Source of the DNA: Sandaracinaceae bacterium
GTDB lineage: Bacteria > Myxococcota_A > Polyangia > Polyangiales > Sandaracinaceae
DNA length: 64,000 nt
NCBI GenBank assembly: GCA_040218145.1
Contig: JAVJQK010000035.1
Location: 186,001-250,000, forward strand
Direction of reading: 5' to 3'
A model generated the notes under the pieces. The model did no database searches. It was given only the letters and a program-made list of their open reading frames with translations, and was not told the DNA's origin. Position numbers and translations under genes: made by a program. Numbering within the stretch: the stretch's first letter is position 1; every line of letters starts with the position of its first letter. Of this stretch, positions 28,267 through 40,605 are shown one piece after another.

Positions 28267-29445
28267 ATGGCCGAACGCGTCCACCTGCCCATCTCGGGCC
28301 AGCCCAAATCGGGCCAGCCCAGCCCCGGCCAGCCCGCCGAGGAGGGTCGGACCACCGACGACCTGGGCGTTCGCACCGACGTGCGCAACGAGCAGTCGGA
28401 GCACGAGGGCCCGGTCCTCGGGATCGCCGACCCCTGGCGAGACCGAAAGCCCGAGCCCGATCGCGCGGTCAGCTGCATCATGGCCGACAGCCTCTACGTG
28501 AAGGCCAACGGCGAGATGCCCTGCTGGTGTGACTCGGGCGAGCAGCTGATCCTCGAGACGCTGACGGTCGAGAAGCTCATGGACCCGAGCTTCGACGCCT
28601 TCAACCACCCGAAGATCCAGGTGATCCGCGACGCCTTCCACCGCGAGGACCGCTACCCGTTCCCGAGCACCTGTCGCCGCTGCGCGATGGTCTACCCCGA
28701 CGCGGAGCGGGATCGGAGCCTCTACCGGGACGGGATCGACACCCTGCACGTCGAGTCGAGCTGGCTGTGCAACCTCGACTGCCCCCTGTGCATCCCGAAG
28801 AAGGAGCGGAAGTCCCTCAAGGACCCGCCCTTCCACGTCGAGCCCTCGCTCTGGGTGGCGCTGGTCCACAACCTGAAGCTCCACGGCGTCAAGCGGGTTC
28901 GCATGCTCCATTTCGAGGGCCGCGGCGACCCGCTGATGCACCCGCACCTCGGGCACCTCTGCAAGGTGTTCCACATGAGCTATCCGGACGCGATCATCCA
29001 GGCGACGACGAACGGCAACTTCCCCTTCAAGGACGACCTCTTCGAGGGGGGGCTGACGCACCTGCGCATCAGCGCCGACGGCGCGCGCGAGGAGAGCTAC
29101 CAGACCTATCGACGGGGCGGGAAGTTCGCCAAGGTCCACAAGTTCATGGCCGACGCGGCCGAGTGCCGGACCCGCCTCGGGCTCCAGGATCGGGTCCACA
29201 TCGAGTGGAAGTACATCCTCTTCGAGTGGAACGACACCGACGAGGAGATGCTCGAGGCCTACCAGATCGCGAACGACATCGGCATCGAGCTGTCGTTCTG
29301 CCTCACGCCCTGGGAGGGGAAGTCGCTGCGCTTCGACAACGACAACCTCTCCGAGAAGCTCGCCGAGATCATGCCCAGCGCACAGAACCGCCCGACGCGG
29401 CACATCGAGCTGGGCCTCGACCATCAGAACGACGCCGCGCAGTGA
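28267..29445 (+). CDS. Radical SAM protein with N-terminal SPASM-like region
   Basis: The ATG at 28267 gives 392 residues. The radical SAM cluster motif is CNLDCPLC (CX3CX2C) at about residues 173-180, followed by a TIM-barrel-like region with HFEGRGDPLMHP, TTNGN and RISADGA segments. Ahead of the barrel, residues 70-140 hold Cys-rich stretches (SCIMADSLYVKANGEMPCWC and STCRRCAM) that look like the SPASM auxiliary-cluster domain normally found after the barrel. It is the first gene of the glycan locus. SPASM proteins modify peptides, enzymes or sugars; the substrate here is unknown. Confidence 0.88.
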   Translation: MAERVHLPISGQPKSGQPSPGQPAEEGRTTDDLGVRTDVRNEQSEHEGPVLGIADPWRDRKPEPDRAVSCIMADSLYVKANGEMPCWCDSGEQLILETLTVEKLMDPSFDAFNHPKIQVIRDAFHREDRYPFPSTCRRCAMVYPDAERDRSLYRDGIDTLHVESSWLCNLDCPLCIPKKERKSLKDPPFHVEPSLWVALVHNLKLHGVKRVRMLHFEGRGDPLMHPHLGHLCKVFHMSYPDAIIQATTNGNFPFKDDLFEGGLTHLRISADGAREESYQTYRRGGKFAKVHKFMADAAECRTRLGLQDRVHIEWKYILFEWNDTDEEMLEAYQIANDIGIELSFCLTPWEGKSLRFDNDNLSEKLAEIMPSAQNRPTRHIELGLDHQNDAAQ

Positions 29446-29462
29446 ATCTGGAGGCGCTCGAC

Positions 29463-29546
29463 ATGCAAGGGGGGAAGTGCAGCCGCGGAGCCGACCGCCG
29501 CGACCTGCGGCCCGGTGGTGGGCAGCGGGGACGCCGACCGCAGTGA
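29463..29546 (+). CDS. Possible 27-residue basic peptide ORF
   Basis: GGAGG (29450-29454) lies 8 bases before the ATG at 29463, and the TGA at 29544 overlaps a GTG (29543) that begins the glycosyltransferase frame, the same GTGA coupling used by many real genes here. The peptide has one Cys, seven Arg, one Lys and a run of Gly. It sits directly behind a radical SAM gene, so it might be a modified peptide or a leader that couples translation. Against it: about a quarter of codons end in A or T, more than in the neighbours, and it could be chance. Confidence 0.35.
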   Translation: MQGGKCSRGADRRDLRPGGGQRGRRPQ

Positions 29547-30616
29547 CCCAGGAGCAACGAAGAGTGAGCCGCCCCCCTCGCGCCAGCGTCATCGTCGTCG
29601 AATGGCGCACCGCCGACTATCTCCCGCGTTGCCTCGAGGCGCTCGAGGCGTCCGAGCTCCCGCGCGACGCCTTCGAGATCATCGTGGTCGACAACGACTC
29701 GCCGACGCCCATCGACCACCTCCACGAGGCCTATCCGTCGGTCCACTTCATCTCCTCGCGCCGGAACCTCGGCTTCGCGGGCGGCTGCCAGCTGGGCGCC
29801 AGCCGGGCCCGCGGCGAGGTGCTCCTCATGGTCAACCCCGACTGCGTCGTCGCCCCCGACTGGCTCGGGCAGATGCTCGCCGTCTTCGACGCGGAGCCGA
29901 GAGCCGGCGTCGTGGGGTGCAAGCTGGTCCACCCGGGCACCCGCGTGCTGCAACACGCGGGGGGGCAGCTCTTCGCCAACGGCCGCAGCGAGCACCTCGG
30001 ACGCGACGAGGCGGACCACGGACAGTACGACGAGCCGCGCGAGGTGGACTACGTCTGCGGCGCGGCCCTCGGCGCGCGCAGGAGCACCGTGGACGAGGTC
30101 GGCTTCCTCTCGGGCGCCTATTTCCCCGCCTACTACGAGGAGACCGAGCTCTGCGTGCGGGTCCGGCGCGCCGGCTGGAAGGTGCTCTACACCCCGCACG
30201 CGCGGGCCGAGCATCACGAGTCGGTCGCCTCCGGGGGAGCGCTCAGCGAGGTCTACCTCCGGCGCTACCACCACGGCCGCATGCGCTTCGTCTATCGCAA
30301 CACCGCCCCGCTGCGCATGTTGACCGACTTCCTCCCGGCCGAGATGGCCTGGCTGTCCCACATGGATAGCAAGGAGCGCTGGATCTGCGCGAAGGCGTAC
30401 GGGCGCGCGCTCGTGGACGCGTGGCGCGAGGACCGAGGCACGCCGGCCCCTGGCGACGTCTCCGCCGAGCGTCCACCGCTGCCGGCGCCCGCCCCGACGG
30501 GCACGCCGCGGGAGCTCACCGTGAGGGGAGCCCAGCGCCCGCCCTCTTCCAGGCCGCCCTCCTCCCGGCCGCCGGCGCCCGGACCGCGCGCGCTCCTCGT
30601 GGGCTCGGAGGGCTGA
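29543..30616 (+). CDS. GT2-family glycosyltransferase (rhamnosyltransferase-like)
   Basis: The product has 357 residues from the GTG at 29543; a second GTG at 29564 is an equally possible start, with a GGAG ten bases ahead. The GT2 fold is clear: SVIVVEWRTADYLPRCLEAL, VVDNDSPT for the first Asp, RNLGFAGGC, NPDCVV for the metal-binding motif, and VCGAALGARR with YFPAYYEETELC later. It resembles WbbL-type rhamnosyltransferases that add sugars to O-antigen or cell-wall glycans. The C-terminal 60 residues are Pro/Arg-rich and disordered. Its stop overlaps the next start (TGATG). Confidence 0.87.
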   Translation: MTQEQRRVSRPPRASVIVVEWRTADYLPRCLEALEASELPRDAFEIIVVDNDSPTPIDHLHEAYPSVHFISSRRNLGFAGGCQLGASRARGEVLLMVNPDCVVAPDWLGQMLAVFDAEPRAGVVGCKLVHPGTRVLQHAGGQLFANGRSEHLGRDEADHGQYDEPREVDYVCGAALGARRSTVDEVGFLSGAYFPAYYEETELCVRVRRAGWKVLYTPHARAEHHESVASGGALSEVYLRRYHHGRMRFVYRNTAPLRMLTDFLPAEMAWLSHMDSKERWICAKAYGRALVDAWREDRGTPAPGDVSAERPPLPAPAPTGTPRELTVRGAQRPPSSRPPSSRPPAPGPRALLVGSEG

Positions 30617-33516
30617 TGTCACGCGTCGTCGTCTTCGGGCTCGGGCCCATGCGCTGGGAGCAGAGCACGCGCCTCTTCGCGCTCCCGCTCCGGACGTGGC
30701 ACTTCGCGGCCACGCTGGCGCGAGATCGGCACGAAGTGTTGCTGTTCTCCATGCGCACGGCCGCGTTCGAGGGCTGGCCCCCGGAGAAGGTCACCAAGGT
30801 CGAGCGGGACGGCGTCACCATCTACTCGCTGAGCGAGCACCTCCTGCACGAGCGGCCGGACTGGGTGCAGGCGCGCATCGCGGAGTTCGGACCGGACTGC
30901 ATCGTCGGCGTGAACAAGGACCCGGCCGCGGTGGCGGTGAACTTCGCGGGCGAGCTCCCCTTCTGGGCCGACATCAACGGCGACCCGATGGCGGAGGCGC
31001 AGGCCAAGGCGGAGGCCGTCGGCACCGACATCTGGACGGGCGAGTTCCACCGGCGCTTCACCACCGCCTTGATGCGCGGCGACGTCTTCTCGACCTGCTC
31101 GACGCCCCAGCGGCACGCGCTGATCGGGCAGCTCTCGATGACCGGCCGGCTCACCGGGCCGAACGCGGGCTACGAGATGGTCCACGCGGTCCCCAACTCG
31201 ATCGACGACGAGGAGCTCCGGCTGCTGTCGACCCTGGATCGCCCCCCGCGCCGCCCCTCGGACCCGTTCGTCCTGCTGTGGAGCGGCGGGTACAACACCT
31301 GGTGCGATCCCGACCTCCTCTACGAGGCGGTGGACCGCGCGATGACAGAGGCGCCGCAGCTGCGCTTCGTCTCCACGGGCGGCGCGATCGGCGGGCACTA
31401 CACCGAAGGCTACGACCGGTTCCGGGAGCGCGTGGCGCGGAGCGGCCACAAGGAGCGCTACCACTTCGCGGGCTGGGTCCAGACGGCGGAGCTGCCCGCC
31501 TACTACGGCGACGCGCACGCGGCGGTGTTGACCGACCGCTTCGGCTACGAGGGTCTGCTCGGCGCGCGCACCCGCATGCTCGACTGGCTCGCGGCGGGGC
31601 TGCCCATCGTCACCACCCGCCTCAGCGAGATCAGCGTCGATCTCGAGAGCGTGGGCGCCGCGCTCTGCTCGGAGTGCGAGAACATCGACGCGATGACCCA
31701 GAACATCCTGCGCCTCGTCCGGCAGCCCGCGCTGGCCGTCGAGATGGGCGCACGCGGCCGCAGGCACGCGAGCGAGCGGCTGCGGGCGGCGCGTCAGCTG
31801 GACGCCCTGCGGGAGTGGGCGGCGGCGCCTCGGCGCGCGCCGGACGGCGAGCGTCGCGTGGAGATGCCGCGTCACGACGACGCGTCGAACGAGGTCAAGT
31901 CGCTCGCCCGCATGCTCGCGGCGCGCACCAAGGAGGTGGGCGTCCGGGGGAGCCTCGGCGACGTCGGTCGCTTCGCCGCGCGGCGCGCGAAGCACCGCGT
32001 GCAGCGAGTCCTCGACAAGGCGGGCCTGCCCGGCGGCGTCGAGGTCATCGAGCTGACCACGCCGCAGGCGGCGCCCGCGGAGGCCCCCCGGCTCGGCGCG
32101 CTGCAGTGGCGCGAGCGCCTCTCCCGCCTCGACGACGTGCCCGCGGTGGCGGTCGTGTTGCTCGTGGACGCGCACGACAACCCCGACGTGCTGGACTGGA
32201 CCGTGGAGCAGGTCGCGCGCCAGTACTACGACGCGTGGGACCTGGTGATCGGCGTGCAGTCGAGCACCCCGGCGCTGCACGCGCGCCTCGACGCCATCCA
32301 GGCGCGCCTCGCAGACCGCGCGCCGATGGAGGTGGTGGACTGCGCGACGAACAACCCGTTCGAGCACCACGCGGTCAACCGCGCCGACTTCGTCGCGCTG
32401 CTGGGCGTGGGCGATCTGCTCCGCCCGGACGCGCTGGCGGAGATGGTCACGCACGCGCGCGATCGCGGGGCGGACGTCGTGTACGCCGACGAGCAGGACG
32501 TCGACGAGACGAACGCGCCGCGGCCGGTGGACCGCAAGCCCGACTGGTCCCCCGAGCTGCTGCTCTCTCGCCCGTTCCTCGGCGGCTGCGCCATCTTTCG
32601 GCGCGCCGGCGTCGACATCGCGCACGAGCGCGCGCGCGCCTGGCCCGCGGCGCCGCTCTCCTATCACCTCGCGCTCTCGGCGACGGAGGGGGCGACGACC
32701 AGCCACCTCGACCGCGTCCTCTGCCAGCGATATCGGCCGCTCAGGGGAGGCTCCGCCGGCCGCATCGAGGCGGAGCGGCGCGTGGGTGAGCTCTGCGCGC
32801 TCGCGCTGAACGACGCGATCTGGCGCCGCCGCCTGGACGCCACGGTGGAGCCGGGTCGAACGGCGGGGACCTTCCGGGTCCGACACCGGCTGCCGCCGGC
32901 CACCGACGTGACGCTCGTGATCCCCGCGGTGGGCCCGGCCGAGCGGCTCGCGCGGTGCTTGCGCGCGATCGAGGCCCGCACCGAGCACGACGCGGTGGAG
33001 CTCGTCGTGGCCGTCGACCCGGACGCGCCGCCCCTGCCGCGCGGCGACTGGCTCGTGGCGCGCTTGCCGCGTCGCATCTCGATCGGCGCGCAGATCGACG
33101 CGGTGCTGCGAGAGCGCAAGTCGACCTTCGTGGCGTGGGTGCTCCCGGAGGCCGAGGTCGTGCGCGCGGGGTGGCTGGACGAGCTGGTCCGCCAGGCCGG
33201 CCGAGACGGAGCGGGCGCCGCCGCGCCCAAGCTGCTCGAGCCGTCCGGGCGCCTCGCCTGGCCGCGGCGGACCGCGCGCGAGCACGTGCACGAGGTGTCC
33301 CAGCTCCCCTTCCAGTGCGCCCTCATGTCGCGGGAGCGCTACCTGGAGGCGGGCGGTCTCGGGGCCGGGGTCGACCTCAAGGCCGCGGTCGACGCCCTCG
33401 CCGACCGACTCGACGAGGCCGGCTACACGCTGCTCTACACGCCCTACGCCAGCCTGTACCTCCACCCGGACCCGCAGGTCACCCCGGCGCGGGAGTCGAG
33501 GCAACGGAGCGCGTGA
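30616..33516 (+). CDS. Multi-domain glycosyltransferase (GT4 + GT2 + GT2-like)
   Basis: This 966-residue protein has three parts. Residues 1-410 look like a GT4/GT-B enzyme: an N-terminal Rossmann-like half, then LLWSGGYNTWCDP, YHFAGWV and a GLLGARTRMLDWLAAGLPIVTT donor-site segment when read in pieces. After a charged linker, residues 495-750 resemble the GT2 domain of O-antigen enzymes (VYADEQDVDE, KPDWSPELLLS, GGCAIFRRAG). Residues 755-950 are a second GT2-like domain (DVTLVIPAVGPAERL) in which the usual DxD is not obvious. It probably adds two or three sugars in turn at the inner membrane. It overlaps both neighbours by TGATG. Confidence 0.82.
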   Translation: MSRVVVFGLGPMRWEQSTRLFALPLRTWHFAATLARDRHEVLLFSMRTAAFEGWPPEKVTKVERDGVTIYSLSEHLLHERPDWVQARIAEFGPDCIVGVNKDPAAVAVNFAGELPFWADINGDPMAEAQAKAEAVGTDIWTGEFHRRFTTALMRGDVFSTCSTPQRHALIGQLSMTGRLTGPNAGYEMVHAVPNSIDDEELRLLSTLDRPPRRPSDPFVLLWSGGYNTWCDPDLLYEAVDRAMTEAPQLRFVSTGGAIGGHYTEGYDRFRERVARSGHKERYHFAGWVQTAELPAYYGDAHAAVLTDRFGYEGLLGARTRMLDWLAAGLPIVTTRLSEISVDLESVGAALCSECENIDAMTQNILRLVRQPALAVEMGARGRRHASERLRAARQLDALREWAAAPRRAPDGERRVEMPRHDDASNEVKSLARMLAARTKEVGVRGSLGDVGRFAARRAKHRVQRVLDKAGLPGGVEVIELTTPQAAPAEAPRLGALQWRERLSRLDDVPAVAVVLLVDAHDNPDVLDWTVEQVARQYYDAWDLVIGVQSSTPALHARLDAIQARLADRAPMEVVDCATNNPFEHHAVNRADFVALLGVGDLLRPDALAEMVTHARDRGADVVYADEQDVDETNAPRPVDRKPDWSPELLLSRPFLGGCAIFRRAGVDIAHERARAWPAAPLSYHLALSATEGATTSHLDRVLCQRYRPLRGGSAGRIEAERRVGELCALALNDAIWRRRLDATVEPGRTAGTFRVRHRLPPATDVTLVIPAVGPAERLARCLRAIEARTEHDAVELVVAVDPDAPPLPRGDWLVARLPRRISIGAQIDAVLRERKSTFVAWVLPEAEVVRAGWLDELVRQAGRDGAGAAAPKLLEPSGRLAWPRRTAREHVHEVSQLPFQCALMSRERYLEAGGLGAGVDLKAAVDALADRLDEAGYTLLYTPYASLYLHPDPQVTPARESRQRSA

Positions 33517-34625
33517 TGCAGGCCCACGGACTGCGCGACGCGTCGGTCCTGGCGCGCATCCCCCTCTACAACGCCTTCCGGGAGCTGGGCTGGCCGCGCA
33601 TCCGCCCGCTGACGATGAGCTTCGTCGTCACCGACAAGTGCAACTCTCGCTGCGAGACCTGTCAGATCGGCGCCCGCTACCTCGACGACCCGAGCGTCGC
33701 CGAGGGCGAGCTGACGCTCGACGAGTACCGGCGCCTCTTCGCGAGCATCGGCCGGCTCGAGTGGGTCACGCTCAGCGGCGGCGAGCCCTTCATGCGCAAG
33801 GACTTCCCGGAGCTCGCGCGCTCCCTGGTGGCTGCCACCCGCCCGCGCGTGGTGAACGTGCCGACGAACGGGACCTTCGTGCACGCCGTCCGCGTCGGCG
33901 TCGCGCGCATGCTCGAGGGCTTCGGCGACACGCGGCTGGTGATCAACGTCAGCCTCGACGGCGTCGGCGCGCGCCACGACCTGGTCCGCGGATTCTCGGG
34001 CAACTTCGAGCGCGTGCTCCAGCTGGCCGAGGCCCTGCGGGAGATCGACGACCCGCGCCTGACCTTCGGCTGCAACACGGTGGTCTCCGCCTTCAACGCC
34101 GAGCACGTCCCGGAGACGATCGACTTCGTGCTCGACGAGCTCCGTCCCGACTCCTACGTGCTCGAGACCGCCCAGGTGCGCCCCGAGTACTACAACGACG
34201 ACGTGGCGCTCGACGCGGGCGCGCGGGCGGTCCGACGCGCGCTCGACCACGCGACCCGCCGCCTCGAGGCGGAGCCGCGCCGCGGCGTGCCCGCCCTGGT
34301 CAAGGCGTTTCGCCGTCACTACTACGCCCAGACGCGCAGGCGCCTCGACGGCCCGGTCTCCCACCGCTGCTTCAGCGGCTTCGCGACCTGCGCCGTCATG
34401 CCCAAGGGAGACGTCTGGTCCAGCACACAGCGCGGCGACGCGATGGGCAACGTGCGCGACTTCGAGCTGGACTTCGGCGCCCTCTGGGCGAGCCCCCAGG
34501 CCGAGCGCGCCCGCGCGCGCGTCCGCGCGAAGCGCTGCACCTGCGAGACCTCGAACGTCAGCTACCCGAACGCTCTCCTCGACCCGCCGCAGCTCGCGGC
34601 CGTCGCGTGGCACGCCCTCTGGTGA
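33516..34625 (+). CDS. Radical SAM protein with C-terminal SPASM/twitch-like region
   Basis: The ATG at 33516 overlaps the previous stop and gives 369 residues. The cluster motif is CNSRCETC at about residues 45-52, followed by LSGGEPFMRKDF (the GGEP motif for SAM binding), VPTNGTF and NVSLDGVG. Near the C-terminus CFSGFATC and CTC pairs with MGNVRDFELDFGALW match the auxiliary-cluster region of SPASM/twitch proteins. The fold is typical of peptide- or sugar-modifying radical SAM enzymes. It is translationally coupled to the upstream glycosyltransferase and the downstream epimerase, so a carbohydrate-linked role is likely. Confidence 0.88.
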   Translation: MQAHGLRDASVLARIPLYNAFRELGWPRIRPLTMSFVVTDKCNSRCETCQIGARYLDDPSVAEGELTLDEYRRLFASIGRLEWVTLSGGEPFMRKDFPELARSLVAATRPRVVNVPTNGTFVHAVRVGVARMLEGFGDTRLVINVSLDGVGARHDLVRGFSGNFERVLQLAEALREIDDPRLTFGCNTVVSAFNAEHVPETIDFVLDELRPDSYVLETAQVRPEYYNDDVALDAGARAVRRALDHATRRLEAEPRRGVPALVKAFRRHYYAQTRRRLDGPVSHRCFSGFATCAVMPKGDVWSSTQRGDAMGNVRDFELDFGALWASPQAERARARVRAKRCTCETSNVSYPNALLDPPQLAAVAWHALW

Positions 34626-35572
34626 GCGACGAGGTCCTGGTCACCGGCGGCGCGGGATGGATCGGCGGCCGCCTCGTCCGCGCGCTCGTCGACGCCGGGT
34701 TCCGCGTGCGCGCGCTGACGCACCGCTCGGCCGTCCCCGCGTGCGCGTCGCCCGTGCGCGGAGACCTGCGCGACGCCGGGAGCCTCCAGGGCGCGGTCCG
34801 CGGGGTGACGGCGGTCGTGCACTGCGCCGCGCGGCTCGACCCGGTCGACTCGGAGGAGGAGGCGGACGCGGTCAACCACCTCGGCACGGCCCACCTCGCG
34901 GAGGCCGCGCGCGCGGCCGGCTGCGCCTCCTTCGTCTTCCTGAGCAGCCAGGCGGCGCTCGGCTGGTCCGCCGACGCCGGGCTCGTGCGCGAGGACGCCC
35001 TCTGCGCGCCGAGCACGGCCTATGGGCGCTCGAAGCGGGATGCCGAGCGCGCGCTCCTCGACGCCGCGGGTCCGATGCGCGTGGTGATCCTGCGCCCGCC
35101 GACCGTGTACGGTCCGGGGGAGCGCCGGAACTTCCTCGCGCTCGCCCGCCCGGCCGCGACCGGGCTCTTCCCCGTCCCGGGCCGGGGAGACAATCGCATG
35201 AGCTTCTGTCACCTCGACAACCTCGTCGACGCCGCGGTGTTCGCGCTCCGAGCGCCGGGCGCGCGCGGCGTCTTGCACGTCGCGGACGCGCACCCGGTCA
35301 CGCTCCGCGAGGCGGTCGACACCATCGCGCATGCGGCGGGCCGGCGGCCCATCCCGGTGCCCTTCCCGTTGCCCGTGGCGCGGCTCGCCGCGCGCGCCTG
35401 CGAGCGCCTGCTCCGATCGCCGCCCCTGTCCCGGGCCCGCCTGCACACGCTGACCAGCGACTGCGCGCTGGACGTCGGCGCCCTCGCCAGGCTGGGCTTC
35501 CGGTGGCCGGTCCGGTTCGAAGAGGGGGTGGGCGAGACGATCGACGAGTATCGCGCGGCTGGCGTGCTGTGA
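34622..35572 (+). CDS. NAD-dependent epimerase/dehydratase of the glycan locus
   Basis: From the GTG at 34622 (GTGA overlap) the product has 316 residues. It shows VTGGAGWIGGRL for NAD binding, VHCAARLDPVD, VFLSSQAALG and YGRSKRDAE (the YxxxK catalytic pair), then LRPPTVYGPGE. This is the extended SDR fold used for nucleotide-sugar epimerases and for 3-beta-hydroxysteroid-dehydrogenase-like enzymes. Within this locus it may make or interconvert the sugar donor. It is coupled by GTGA to the following membrane protein. Confidence 0.87.
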   Translation: MSDEVLVTGGAGWIGGRLVRALVDAGFRVRALTHRSAVPACASPVRGDLRDAGSLQGAVRGVTAVVHCAARLDPVDSEEEADAVNHLGTAHLAEAARAAGCASFVFLSSQAALGWSADAGLVREDALCAPSTAYGRSKRDAERALLDAAGPMRVVILRPPTVYGPGERRNFLALARPAATGLFPVPGRGDNRMSFCHLDNLVDAAVFALRAPGARGVLHVADAHPVTLREAVDTIAHAAGRRPIPVPFPLPVARLAARACERLLRSPPLSRARLHTLTSDCALDVGALARLGFRWPVRFEEGVGETIDEYRAAGVL

Positions 35573-37173
35573 GCGCGCGACTCGCCTCGGCCGCCGCCGT
35601 CGCGGCGCTCGCGCTCGTCCCCTACCTCCAGACGCTCGAGTTCGGCCCGACCTACGACGATCACCACCACGTCGTCGACAACGCGTTCCTCCAGGACGCC
35701 TCCAACGTCGCCCTCCTCTTCTCGGCCGAGTATCTCTCCCTCGAGATCCCCGACCAGGGCCGCCCCGTGCTCCTCGCGAGCCTCCTGGCCGACCGCGCCC
35801 TCTTCGGCGACTCGTTCGCGGGGGCTCACGCGCAGAGCGCGCTCTGGCACGTCCTCGTGAGCCTGATGGTGCTCTGGCTCGCCTGGCGACTCGGCGCCCC
35901 GCCCGCCGTGGCCGCCGGAGGCGCGGCGCTCTTCGCCCTCCACCCCGCGTGCGTCGAGGCGGTGGCCGGCGTGAGCAACCGCGAGGATCCGCTCGCCGCG
36001 TTCTTCGTGCTCGTCGCGCTCTGGGCGGCCTCACGGCTGGCCCGCGGGAGCTGGACCTGGCTCGCGCTCGTGTTCGTCGCGTTCGCGCTGGCGCTCGGCG
36101 CGAAGGAGGTCGCGGTCGTCGCGCCCGCGCTGTTCGTCCTGCTCGCGGCCGCCGTCCCCGCCGTTCGCCCCTCCCGCGCTCGCGCGGCGGCGCTCGCCGG
36201 GGTGGGCGCCGCGGCCATGACCACGTGGGCGGCGTTTCAGGTCGCGCTCGGCGTCCCTTCGCTCTCCATCGGCGCCGGCGCCGGGCCGCTGACGCCGCTC
36301 TCGATCGGGCTCGGGTGGAGCCCCCTCGCGAGCGCGACGCGCCTCCACGACCTGGGCTGGCAACACGCCGCACCCGTGCTGGCCCATCGGGTCGGCCGGC
36401 TCGCCATCGGCTGGCCGCTCTCCGCCGAGCACGACCTCGACTTCGTGCTCAGCCCGGGCGGGCTGGTGATCGGAGGCGCCGTCCTGCTCGCGCTGGTGGC
36501 GGCCGGGCTGCTCCTCTGGCGAGAGCACCGCGGGCTCGCCGTCGCGGCGTGGTGGCTCCTCGTGGCCAGCCTCCCCACGCTCGCCTCGCCCTGGCTCCTC
36601 AACCCCGTCGCCGACCGCTACCTCTACCTGCCCGCGGTGGGCGTGTGCGCGGGGCTGGGCATCGCGCTGGCCGCGCCCCGGGATCCGCGCTGGCCGCGCC
36701 TGCTCCTGCTCGGTCTGCTCGCGTTCTTCGGGGCGCGGGCGATCGAGCGCGCCAGCGTCTGGCGAGACGACGTCACGCTCTTCGACGACGCCGCGCGCAA
36801 CGCCCCGCGGTCCGCGCGCGCCTGGCAGAACCTCGGCGCCGCGCACCTCTCCGCCGGCGACACCGAGCGCGCGATCCTGGCCCTCGAACGGGCTCTCGAG
36901 CTGGATCCGGCGCGCAAGTCCACGCACCTGAACCTCGGCATCGCGCACCTGCGTCGTGGGGATCGGGGCGCGGGGCTGCGCGCGCTCGAGTCGGCGATCG
37001 AGGCTCCCACGCTCGCCGGGGAGCGGCCGCTGCACGACCGGGCGTTCGACGTCTACGCGCGGCAACTCGAGCGGCTCGGGCGTCGCGACACCCTTCGCGC
37101 CGCGGTCGCGCGCGAGCTGGCGCGGAGCCCGGACTCTCTCCCCGCGCGGGCCTGGCAGCTGCGCCTGGAGTGA
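35569..37173 (+). CDS. TMTC/PMT-like polytopic protein with C-terminal TPRs
   Basis: The 534-residue product begins with TYDDHHHVVDN after the first helix, a motif like that of the GT-C enzymes and TMTC O-mannosyltransferases, where an acidic residue in the first loop is catalytic. About ten membrane helices follow, with ALHPACVEAVAGVSNREDPLA after the third, another TMTC-like signature. Residues 410-500 form two or three TPRs (ARAWQNLGAAHLSAGD, LELDPARKSTHLNLGIAHLRRG). The protein would transfer a lipid-linked sugar on the periplasmic side. GTGA overlap joins it to the epimerase gene. Confidence 0.83.
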   Translation: MSARLASAAAVAALALVPYLQTLEFGPTYDDHHHVVDNAFLQDASNVALLFSAEYLSLEIPDQGRPVLLASLLADRALFGDSFAGAHAQSALWHVLVSLMVLWLAWRLGAPPAVAAGGAALFALHPACVEAVAGVSNREDPLAAFFVLVALWAASRLARGSWTWLALVFVAFALALGAKEVAVVAPALFVLLAAAVPAVRPSRARAAALAGVGAAAMTTWAAFQVALGVPSLSIGAGAGPLTPLSIGLGWSPLASATRLHDLGWQHAAPVLAHRVGRLAIGWPLSAEHDLDFVLSPGGLVIGGAVLLALVAAGLLLWREHRGLAVAAWWLLVASLPTLASPWLLNPVADRYLYLPAVGVCAGLGIALAAPRDPRWPRLLLLGLLAFFGARAIERASVWRDDVTLFDDAARNAPRSARAWQNLGAAHLSAGDTERAILALERALELDPARKSTHLNLGIAHLRRGDRGAGLRALESAIEAPTLAGERPLHDRAFDVYARQLERLGRRDTLRAAVARELARSPDSLPARAWQLRLE

Positions 37174-37248
37174 CGCATCTCGCCGAGCGATCTGCTATAG
37201 CCGTGCGTCGCGTCCGTCGCCCGGCATCGCGGCAGTCGTACTCATCGG

Positions 37249-38718
37249 ATGGTCTTCCTTCTCGCCCTCTTCGAGATCGCCCGCGTCCTCCTGCGGGCGC
37301 TGCTCGTGGTGCTCAGCTACCACTTCCTGAGGGCAGCGTGGACCGGACTGCGCGAAGAGGACCCGAAGCTGCCCGAGGCGCCCGACCCGTGGCCGAGCGT
37401 CTGCGTCCAGCTGCCTCTCAAGAACGAGTACTACGTCGCCGAGCGGGTGATCCGCCACGCCGCGCAGCTCCGCTACCCCGGGGGGCGCCTCTCGATCCAG
37501 GTCCTCGACGACAGCGACGACCGAACGACGGCGCGCGTCGCGCGGGTGGTGGAGGAGCTGCGCGCGCAGGGCGTCGAGATCACCCACCTCCACCGCGAGC
37601 GCCCCACGGGCTACAAGGCGGGCGCGCTGCAGGCGGGGCTCGGCGAGACCGACGCCGACATCATCGCGATCTTCGACGCCGACTGCATGCCGGCCGAAGA
37701 TTTCCTGCTTCGCACCGTCCCGTTCTTCCGCGACGCGCGCGTCGGCTGCGTCCAGGTCCGGTGGAGCTTCCTCAACCGCCAGCGCTCTCTCCTGACGCGC
37801 GTCCAGGCGATGGTCCTCGACGGCCTGTTCGCGATCGATCAGTTCGCCCGCGCGGCCAGCCGGCTGCCCATGCAGTTCAACGGCACGAACGGGCTCTGGC
37901 GCACCGAGACCATCCGGGCCTCCGGGGGCTGGCGAGGCGAGATCCTGGCCGAGGACGCCGACCTCTCCTTCCGCGCCCACCTCTCCGGCTGGCGGCTCGT
38001 CCATCTCCGCCAGTACGCGGTGCCGACGGAGCTCCCCGAGGACATGGCGTCCTTCCGCACGCAGCAGCACCGCTGGTCGCTCGGCAGCGCGCAGCTCCTG
38101 CGCTCGCTCGGGTGGCGGATCCTCCGGAGCGACCTGCCGGCGCGCTCGAAGCTGATGATGTTCATGCACATGGGCCGGCACGCCATCGATCCGCTCATCC
38201 TCATGGCGTCCCTGACCTCTCCGTTCACGACCCTCTACGGGCTGCCGTTCCTGGTCGACTACACGGTGCCGGTGAACACGGCGCTGTTCGGCCTGGTGGG
38301 CGTGGGCTGCTTCTTCTTCTACGGCGCGGCGCTTCGCTACGTCGGCGCCCCCCTCTCGAACGTGCTCCTCATCCCGCTCATCATCCCGCTCGCCATCGGC
38401 CTCTCGCTCGCCTACACGCTCGCGTGGTTCGAGGGGCTCGTGCGGCTGGGCGGCCCCTTCATCCGGACGCCCAAGGCGGGCTCGCGGGCGGAGTCGGACG
38501 GCCCTCGTTATCGGAGCCGCAAGCCGCTGCTCGCGCTGGCCGAGGTGGTGCTCGGGAGCGGGCACCTCTACTTCACCGCGGAGGCGCTGCTCGAGGGCCT
38601 GTACACGGAGGCCGCCTTCTTCGCGATGCTCGGCGGCAGCTTCCTCTGGGTGGGGCTCGGGACGCTCTCGAGCCGGGGCGTGGGCCGCGGGGGGCCGACC
38701 GCGGAGGAAGCGGGTTGA
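37249..38718 (+). CDS. Cellulose-synthase-like GT2 (glucomannan synthase-like)
   Basis: The 489-residue membrane enzyme has an N-terminal helix, a cytosolic GT2 domain and three or four C-terminal helices. The processive GT2 motifs are all present: VLDDSDD, FDADCMP (DxD), ILAEDADLSFR (ED) and QQHRWSLG (QxxRW). This pattern, with QLPLKNE early on, is close to CslA-type glucomannan/mannan synthases and to bacterial relatives. It would polymerise a beta-linked chain from a nucleotide sugar and move it across the inner membrane. It follows the TPR-containing enzyme by 75 bases and probably ends the same locus. Confidence 0.87.
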   Translation: MVFLLALFEIARVLLRALLVVLSYHFLRAAWTGLREEDPKLPEAPDPWPSVCVQLPLKNEYYVAERVIRHAAQLRYPGGRLSIQVLDDSDDRTTARVARVVEELRAQGVEITHLHRERPTGYKAGALQAGLGETDADIIAIFDADCMPAEDFLLRTVPFFRDARVGCVQVRWSFLNRQRSLLTRVQAMVLDGLFAIDQFARAASRLPMQFNGTNGLWRTETIRASGGWRGEILAEDADLSFRAHLSGWRLVHLRQYAVPTELPEDMASFRTQQHRWSLGSAQLLRSLGWRILRSDLPARSKLMMFMHMGRHAIDPLILMASLTSPFTTLYGLPFLVDYTVPVNTALFGLVGVGCFFFYGAALRYVGAPLSNVLLIPLIIPLAIGLSLAYTLAWFEGLVRLGGPFIRTPKAGSRAESDGPRYRSRKPLLALAEVVLGSGHLYFTAEALLEGLYTEAAFFAMLGGSFLWVGLGTLSSRGVGRGGPTAEEAG

Positions 38719-38719
38719 C

Positions 38720-39562
38720 GTGAGCCCCGGCTTTGGGCACCAAGGGAGCGTGCGCATCACCTCCCTCGTCGTCCTCGCCCTGGCGCTGGCCGCGCTCGCT
38801 CCCCTGACCGCGGCGGCCCAGTGCGAACCCGAGCCCGAGCCCCCGGACCACCTGCGCGCGGTCGCGCGTCAGAGCTACACGGAGGGCGTCGAGGCGGCGG
38901 CGCAGGAGCGATGGATGGAGGCCCGCGAGGCCTTCCAGCGCGCGTTCGACGTCGCCCCGTTCGCGCAGATCGTCTACAACCTCGCCACCGCGCAGGCCCA
39001 GACGGACCGGCTGGTGCAGGCCGCGGAGAACTACCGCCGCTTCCTCCGGCGATGCCAGAGCGAGCAGATGCCCGAGCTCCGCGCGGACGCGCAGCAGCTC
39101 CTGACGACCGTCGCGCCACGCATCGGGCGGCTCACGCTCCGGGTCAACAATTTCGAGAGCGCCTTCGACCGGCTGACGCTCGACGGTGAGGCGATGCAGG
39201 GCGCGATCCTCGGCACCGAGATCCCCATCAACCCGGGCCAGCACGAGGTGCGGGTGGTGCGACGCGGCGAGGAGCTCGAGTCGCGGAGCTTCACGGTCGG
39301 CGAAGGCGAGAGCGCCCAGGTCGAGCTGTCGGTGGAGGAGTACGTCGGGCCGTCGCCCGAGGAGCTGGCCGAGGGCGGTGGCGGCGGCACGACGCAGCCC
39401 AGCGGCCCCGACGTCGGGCTCATCGTCGGCATCAGCATCGGCGTCGCGCTCGCGCTCGGCGCCGCCGCGACGGTGCTCGCCATCGTGCTCACGCAGGACT
39501 CCGGGGAGCAGCTCCCCGAGGGGACCTGGGCCCCCGCGCAGGTCCCGCTCGTCTCCTGGTGA
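38720..39562 (+). CDS. Exported TPR protein with C-terminal membrane helix
   Basis: The GTG at 38720 lies two bases after the previous stop; a second in-frame GTG at 38750 would give a more standard signal peptide. The chain has a signal sequence (SLVVLALALAALAPLTAAAQ), a TPR-like region at about residues 45-105, a beta-rich PEGA-like domain near 115-205 (INPGQHEVRVVRRGEE), a Gly-rich linker and one membrane helix (VGLIVGISIGVALALGAA). This composition matches a frequent envelope-protein type in Myxococcota. Role unknown. Confidence 0.78.
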   Translation: MSPGFGHQGSVRITSLVVLALALAALAPLTAAAQCEPEPEPPDHLRAVARQSYTEGVEAAAQERWMEAREAFQRAFDVAPFAQIVYNLATAQAQTDRLVQAAENYRRFLRRCQSEQMPELRADAQQLLTTVAPRIGRLTLRVNNFESAFDRLTLDGEAMQGAILGTEIPINPGQHEVRVVRRGEELESRSFTVGEGESAQVELSVEEYVGPSPEELAEGGGGGTTQPSGPDVGLIVGISIGVALALGAAATVLAIVLTQDSGEQLPEGTWAPAQVPLVSW

Positions 39563-39591
39563 TCGGTGATCGACGATAGCGGGATGCGGCC

Positions 39592-40605
39592 GTGGTGATC
39601 GGGCTCGTCGACGACGCGCGCTTCGACGCGCACACCGCGCGCGGCGTCCACCCCGAGCGCCCCGAGCGCCTCGCCGCCGCCCGGTCCGGGCTCCGCGGCG
39701 CGGTCGACGCGTCTCTGCTGAAGCCCATCGCGACCCGCCCGGTCAGCGCGGAGGAGCTCGCGTCCGTGCACCAGTCCGCGTACCTCGACACCCTCCACGC
39801 CGCGCTCGCGAGGGGCTGGGGGAGCCTCGACGCCGACACGTTCCACTCTCCGGGCAGCGAGGAGGCGGCCTGGCACGCGGCGGGCGGCGCGGCCGAGCTG
39901 GCGCGCCGCACCATGGAGGGAGAGCTGACACGCGGCGTGGCGCTGCTGCGCCCGCCCGGCCATCACGCGGAGGCCGACCGGGCGATGGGCTTCTGCATGC
40001 TCAACAACGTCGCGCTCGCCGCACGCGCCGCGCAGGCCGCGGGCGCTCGGCGCGTCGCCATCGTCGACTGGGACGTGCACCACGGCAACGGCACCCAGCA
40101 CATCTTCGAGTCGGACCCCGACGTCCTGTTCGTCTCTCTTCACCAGTGGCCGCTCTATCCGGGCACCGGCGCGGCGAACGAGATCGGCGTGGGCGCCGGC
40201 GAAGGCGCGACCGCGAACCTCGCCCTCCCCGCCGGCAGCGGCGACGAGGTCTACGGAGAGGCGTTTCGCGAGGTCGTGTTGCCGCTCCTGCGCCGGCACG
40301 CGCCGGACCTCATCCTGGTCTCCGCCGGCTACGACGCGCACCAGCGCGACCCGCTCGCCTCCATGGAGCTGTCGAGCGACGCCTACGGCGCGATGGCGTC
40401 CGCCCTCGTCGAGACCGCCGAGGCTCTCGGACACGGCCGCGTCCTCTGTCTGCTCGAGGGCGGCTACGACCTCGTCGGCCTCGAGAGCAGCGTCGCCGCG
40501 ACCGCCAGGGCGCTCCTCGGAACGCACACCGCGTTGCCCGAAGGACGCGTCCCGGCCGCCGCGCGCGAGGCGATCGCCGCGGCCAAGCGCGCGACGTCGC
40601 GCTGA
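39592..40605 (+). CDS. Histone deacetylase-family (AcuC/HDAC-like) deacetylase
   Basis: The 337-residue protein carries the zinc-dependent deacetylase signatures: RPPGHHAEADRAMGFC with the paired catalytic His, DWDVHHGNGTQ with metal ligands Asp and His, and SAGYDAHQRDP with the third ligand. The closing LEGGYDL supplies the Gly-Gly-Tyr loop. Bacterial class II members remove acyl groups from acetylated lysines, polyamines or acetoin-related substrates. It begins with GTG at 39592 and stands apart from obvious partners. All catalytic residues look intact. Confidence 0.92.
   Translation: MVIGLVDDARFDAHTARGVHPERPERLAAARSGLRGAVDASLLKPIATRPVSAEELASVHQSAYLDTLHAALARGWGSLDADTFHSPGSEEAAWHAAGGAAELARRTMEGELTRGVALLRPPGHHAEADRAMGFCMLNNVALAARAAQAAGARRVAIVDWDVHHGNGTQHIFESDPDVLFVSLHQWPLYPGTGAANEIGVGAGEGATANLALPAGSGDEVYGEAFREVVLPLLRRHAPDLILVSAGYDAHQRDPLASMELSSDAYGAMASALVETAEALGHGRVLCLLEGGYDLVGLESSVAATARALLGTHTALPEGRVPAAAREAIAAAKRATSR

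Follow-up and report, generated by a model that had tools for sequence, protein, structure and literature searches.

Seven genes on one strand carry two radical SAM proteins

Two genes for radical SAM proteins stand among glycosyltransferase genes in the genome studied here (11.06 Mb), and this raises the question whether they belong to one dedicated pathway or became neighbours by chance, and, in the former case, what such a pathway makes. The window, that is the whole stretch of 64,000 nucleotides that was analysed, corresponds to C35:186001-250000. Within it, seven genes are found on the + strand between positions 28267 and 38718, both in the list of open reading frames and by a codon-model gene call. 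A first-pass annotation had counted eight, though it named seven itself. The first gene encodes a radical SAM protein of 392 aa (rSAM1; 28267..29445; Pfam Radical_SAM, E 9e-8) and is followed by genes for an inverting glycosyltransferase of 350 aa (GT2; 29564..30616; Glycos_transf_2, E 9e-23), a 966-aa GT4-GT2 protein (30616..33516; Glyco_trans_1_4, E 3e-11), a second radical SAM protein of 369 aa (rSAM2; 33516..34625; Radical_SAM, E 4e-14) and an extended, NAD-dependent epimerase-reductase of 316 aa (SDR; 34622..35572; Epimerase, E 2e-38). The last two encode a 534-aa TMTC-like membrane glycosyltransferase of the GT-C type (35569..37173; weak PMT_2/PMT and TPR matches) and a CslA/cellulose-synthase-like processive GT2 of 489 aa (37249..38718; Glyco_tranf_2_3, E 1e-21). 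Stop/start overlaps occur at 30614-30618, 33514-33518, 34622-34625 and 35569-35572, exactly where they had been placed before, and every gene class that had been named is backed by Pfam.

As 68 radical SAM matches are found by Pfam in 11.06 Mb, about 0.06 radical SAM genes would be expected in 10.4 kb, and two are observed. Radical SAM genes are also clustered at other places in the same genome, and it is the gene order kept in other genera, rather than radical SAM density, which is the stronger argument that the locus is not a product of chance.

Gene order is conserved in five species of two families

We searched 183 Polyangiales genomes for orthologues, with identity cut-offs of >=45% for GT4-GT2, >=54% for rSAM2, >=58% for CslA and >=65% for rSAM1. 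Orthologues of GT4-GT2, rSAM2 and CslA were found in an identical set of six genomes, representing five species from two families; those carriers that are identified by name are metagenome-assembled genomes. The metagenome-assembled genome MED-G138 (Sandaracinaceae bacterium) is of the same species as the genome of the window, its proteins being 98-100% identical, and the host is accordingly placed in Myxococcota, Polyangiales, Sandaracinaceae. A pattern scan with GT4-GT2 in about 85,000 species genomes returned three loci, all among those already found, and the system is a rare one of marine myxobacteria.

The order GT2, GT4-GT2, rSAM2, SDR, TMTC is unchanged in all five species, despite unrelated insertions. 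In G297, from another genus of Sandaracinaceae, rSAM1, GT2 and GT4-GT2 lie at the end of one contig, and rSAM2, SDR, TMTC and CslA run from the end of another, ordered as in the window. In G115, which belongs to another family, the five genes from GT2 to TMTC are found in order within 12 kb and CslA is unlinked. G124 and G205 have the core and CslA in order as well, spread over about 23-29 kb with unrelated genes between them. Synteny across genera, which had been proposed as the test of a dedicated pathway, is thus observed in five species and two families. It had also been argued that the idea would fail if the radical SAM genes were scattered in related genomes or if the two halves of the locus never co-occurred; close rSAM2 orthologues are never found apart from the core, and the halves are together in all five species.

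The two radical SAM genes do not share the same fate. rSAM2 is present in all five core species, as the claim of two radical SAM proteins would have it, and the part of that claim concerning rSAM1 could not be generalised, since this gene is present in four of the six core genomes (three of the five species) and missing from G115 and G205. rSAM1 is therefore an optional accessory to the locus. One may ask whether the whole assembly is a loose island of glycan genes, in which the radical SAM proteins have unrelated roles and their adjacency is incidental. The loss of rSAM1 in two species, its position on the opposite strand in G124 and the many unrelated insertions in G124 and G205 would fit such an explanation. 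However, rSAM2 accompanies the core in six of six genomes, its gene overlaps those of the SDR and of a glycosyltransferase, and distant rSAM2 homologues are again paired with SDR and glycosyltransferase genes, so that we regard incidental adjacency as improbable.

A second island encodes an ABC exporter

The locus is not the whole unit, but probably the main half of a larger system. A second island, C35:157969-164056, lies upstream on this contig, at 50 kb from the locus and 28 to 22 kb ahead of the first base of the window. It encodes an A6-family protein, a MopE-motif protein, an RCC1-repeat protein, a Wzt-like ATPase, a Wzm-like permease and a GT2. Pfam assigns the two exporter subunits to ABC_tran (ATPase) and ABC2_membrane (permease). 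The best models are TagH and Wzt/RfbE for the former, and Wzm/RfbD and KpsM for the latter. This makes it an ABC-2 exporter of the polysaccharide type linked to glycosyltransferases, although neither exporter gene, nor any gene of the locus, reaches an equivalog cut-off of the NCBIfam models.

A6 is an uncharacterised family of 280-306 aa, methyltransferase-like, with the motif 'GLGTAYER...EGPxDG' and no Pfam match. A profile search found it in all six core genomes. The copy in the genome of the window (C35:157969-158823) lies 28 kb before the window start. In G124 and G205, the genes for the exporter, a further GT2 and A6 are in or beside the main cluster, where orthologues of the island flank CslA and A6 stands directly upstream of the GT2 that precedes GT4-GT2. 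In G115, an island unites the unlinked CslA gene, which A6 adjoins, with the ABC-2 exporter and a GT2. The distance of 50 kb in the genome of the window is a point against a single pathway. Nevertheless, since two species have the parts together and the others separate them in two different ways, we consider the evidence for one functional system to be strong.

The system shares an ABC-2 permease, a short ATPase and several GT2/GT4 enzymes with the Wzm/Wzt-dependent pathways that export O-antigen, galactan and teichoic acid. It differs from them in adding one or two radical SAM proteins, the A6-family protein and the TMTC-like GT-C, in being split into islands, and in an ATPase of 250 aa which consists of ABC_tran only and has no C-terminal carbohydrate-binding domain. 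Such a domain is found on Wzt in some systems only and does not define all of them. As a whole, the system would work like an ABC-dependent glycan pathway, set apart by its radical SAM and A6 genes and by its division into islands.

Glycosyltransferases and the SDR retain conserved motifs

The NPD and EETELC motifs of GT2 are kept in five orthologues, and the former is a motif which we take to be typical of rhamnosyltransferase-type GT2 enzymes. The description of the next protein as a GT4/GT2 fusion holds for its GT4 domain (about residues 1-410 of 966), which is highly conserved across genera in an alignment of four orthologues, and does not hold for a catalytic GT2 half. The tail consists of two GT2-like halves with weak Pfam matches (E 2e-6 and 6e-4) and without DxD, and it is degenerate and probably inactive. 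In G205 it is encoded as an ORF of its own, apart from GT4, and matches of the whole protein in a plasmid search were confined to this tail. The SDR keeps GxxGxxG and YxxxK in its orthologues. In the TMTC-like protein a YDDH loop motif is present, YDD and NPVADRYLYLP are conserved, and TPRs are located at the C-terminus. DxD (D-A/S-D) and QxxRW (QQxRW) occur in four orthologues of the CslA-like GT2, which scores 106 bits with the CelA model, below its cut-off of 699.

The two radical SAM proteins differ in their accessory cysteines

Both proteins have a CX3CX2C motif and exceed the 29.5-bit cut-off of PF04055, with 32.9 bits for rSAM1 and 53.4 bits for rSAM2. In rSAM1, C70, C86 and C136xxC139 precede the core C168xxxC172xxC175, and all are invariant in six homologues. 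This architecture, CX15C and CX2C before CX3CX2C, is the pattern of an N-terminal twitch followed by a radical SAM domain, and the N-terminal domain is twitch/SPASM-like and a putative cluster-binding one. The N_Twi_rSAM model NF033640, likewise annotated as twitch plus radical SAM, matches all six rSAM1 homologues weakly (16.4 bits for rSAM1, with a cut-off of 170), and the match stops short of the N-terminal cysteine domain. Nor is rSAM1 a member of the BlsE family (19.5 bits, cut-off 400). In rSAM2, by alignment, the core C42xxxC46xxC49 is followed by the C-terminal twitch-like cysteines C285, C341 and C343. The cysteine of the 'WxCC' stretch of distant homologues is replaced in the core clade, which has 'WSS/WSN' there and in which a new cysteine appears at 'FATC'; this loss and gain may possibly represent a swap of an auxiliary-cluster ligand.

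Structures predicted from three sequences each (pLDDT 59 and 52) show a generic radical SAM fold, and because of this low confidence we read their fold matches, among which are the structures of AprD4, BlsE and DesII, as 'radical SAM fold' only. The RiPP maturase SkfB is among the best PDB matches of rSAM2, both in sequence and in fold. Together with the SPASM/twitch-like cysteines of both proteins and a weak resemblance of GT2 to MftF, this could suggest that a ribosomal peptide is the substrate of the radical SAM proteins and is afterwards decorated by the glycosyltransferases. We find this most unlikely. A search in and near the locus revealed no conserved short ORF, low-complexity noise aside, and according to Pfam none of the proteins of the locus has a PqqD/RRE or peptidase domain. 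The mycofactocin models score below their cut-offs (MftF on GT2, 90.6 of 280 bits; MftC on rSAM2, 39.4 of 265 bits). In the gap between rSAM1 and GT2 there is an ORF of 27 aa (29463-29546 of the window) with a good Shine-Dalgarno-like stretch; in G297 this gap is 17 nt and leaves no room for it. The first-pass annotation had suggested an unusual glycan or glycopeptide. Since no precursor peptide was found, the glycopeptide is not supported, and an unusual glycan is the best fit, strengthened by the linked Wzm/Wzt-like exporter.

Among viral contigs there were no relatives of rSAM1, and rSAM2 gave just weak, generic radical SAM matches. On plasmids, a relative of rSAM1 (27%) was found in Rhodobacteraceae, without glycan genes as neighbours.

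rSAM2 and an SDR recur in a second operon type

Homologues of rSAM2 at 33-37% identity, in other Polyangiales, are part of a second conserved operon with, in turn, genes for an SDR, a TIGR00374 flippase-like protein, a GT2, the rSAM2 homologue and A6, the latter being 39% identical to the G124 copy. This operon (L125:3546-8467, L072:7592-12551, L161, L162, L163, L164 and L165) is complete in six genomes, its order being partly changed in G233, and a part of it was seen in G204. With 60 Epimerase-family matches in 11 Mb, the expected fraction of 12-kb stretches with an SDR is about 0.065 in the genome of the window, and one is observed near most of these homologues. Below about 33% identity there is no consistent SDR neighbour, and we thus claim the pairing for the closer clades only. 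Its recurrence in two operon types supports a sequential action of rSAM2 and the SDR.

The same operon, with its flippase-like protein and HpnA-like SDR, raises the idea that the radical SAM proteins and SDR modify a membrane lipid (a polyprenyl, hopanoid or glycerolipid) which is then glycosylated, in the manner of HpnH/HpnA/HpnI. The SDR of the locus matches the HpnA and OleD models, and rSAM2 and CslA weakly match HpnH and HpnI, respectively. However, the scores are far from the hopanoid cut-offs (HpnH 37.8 of 225 bits, HpnA 91.6 of 368, HpnI 47 of 310), and a Wzm/Wzt-type exporter and a processive GT2 fit a glycan better. A lipid substrate thus seems rather unlikely to us. A more tentative thought, which we would not press, is that rSAM2, the SDR and A6 form a recurrent and hitherto undescribed sugar-tailoring module serving both the ABC-exported pathway and the flippase-like five-gene operon, and carrying out a radical sugar modification that is not known from polysaccharides.

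A proposed surface-glycan pathway and its precedents

We consider it probable that some Polyangiales have a dedicated pathway for a surface glycan or glycolipid, of which the locus forms the main half, the product being tailored by rSAM2 and the SDR and exported by the ABC transporter. From the gene content, order, motifs and co-occurrence, and from the exporter family by sequence, we infer the reaction types, the order and sidedness of the steps and the product as follows. GT2, GT4 and the processive CslA-like GT2 would assemble the glycan in the cytoplasm. rSAM2 might abstract a hydrogen from a sugar of the donor or of the growing glycan, and the SDR might complete the reaction by NAD(P)H redox chemistry, with net epimerisation, deoxygenation or oxidation as a result. 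In some species rSAM1 could introduce a further radical modification. The Wzm/Wzt-like ABC-2 exporter would then carry the product across the membrane, and the TMTC-like GT-C may add sugars on the outer face from a polyprenyl-phosphate donor.

AprD4/AprD3, a radical SAM diol dehydratase and an NAD(P)H reductase acting on a sugar, may serve by analogy as a mechanistic model for rSAM2 and the SDR. These enzymes, as well as BlsE and DesII, perform radical SAM chemistry on sugars in antibiotic pathways and not in polymer assembly. A literature search for radical SAM proteins and polysaccharides revealed no matching pathway. The nearest report concerns a 36-kb plasmid of Brachyspira hyodysenteriae, in which radical SAM genes lie beside glycosyltransferase and NAD-dependent epimerase genes, with no mechanism given (PMC4267127). 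Its gene content resembles that of the locus in this combination, and differs in rfbABCD and several further radical SAM genes, TMTC- and CslA-like genes not being listed. Given this precedent, a radical SAM gene in a glycan locus is not new in general.

If the pathway is as proposed, radical chemistry would tailor a structural, exported bacterial glycan instead of an antibiotic or cofactor, and the locus would point to a testable sugar substrate for two radical SAM proteins, an SDR and a family newly recognised as their partner. It would also be a case of a glycan pathway genetically kept together though its genes are split into distant islands.

Additional genes accompany the locus

Just after the locus, at 38750-40605 of the window, there are genes for a TPR-containing protein and a histone-deacetylase-family protein. 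The pair is also kept in G297 (52% and 68%) but did not turn up next to the locus in the other family. The G124 cluster also holds RmlD-like, methyltransferase and further GT2 genes. In G205 a sugar-nucleotidyltransferase-type gene stands between rSAM2 and SDR, and a radical SAM protein with a B12-binding domain is encoded directly upstream of rSAM2 (L112:11686-13671, - strand). The genus of G124 and G205 (L110, L111, L069) has a common wider set of methyltransferases, a YdjC-like deacetylase and a YfhO-like membrane protein, part of which is also present in the G115 island.
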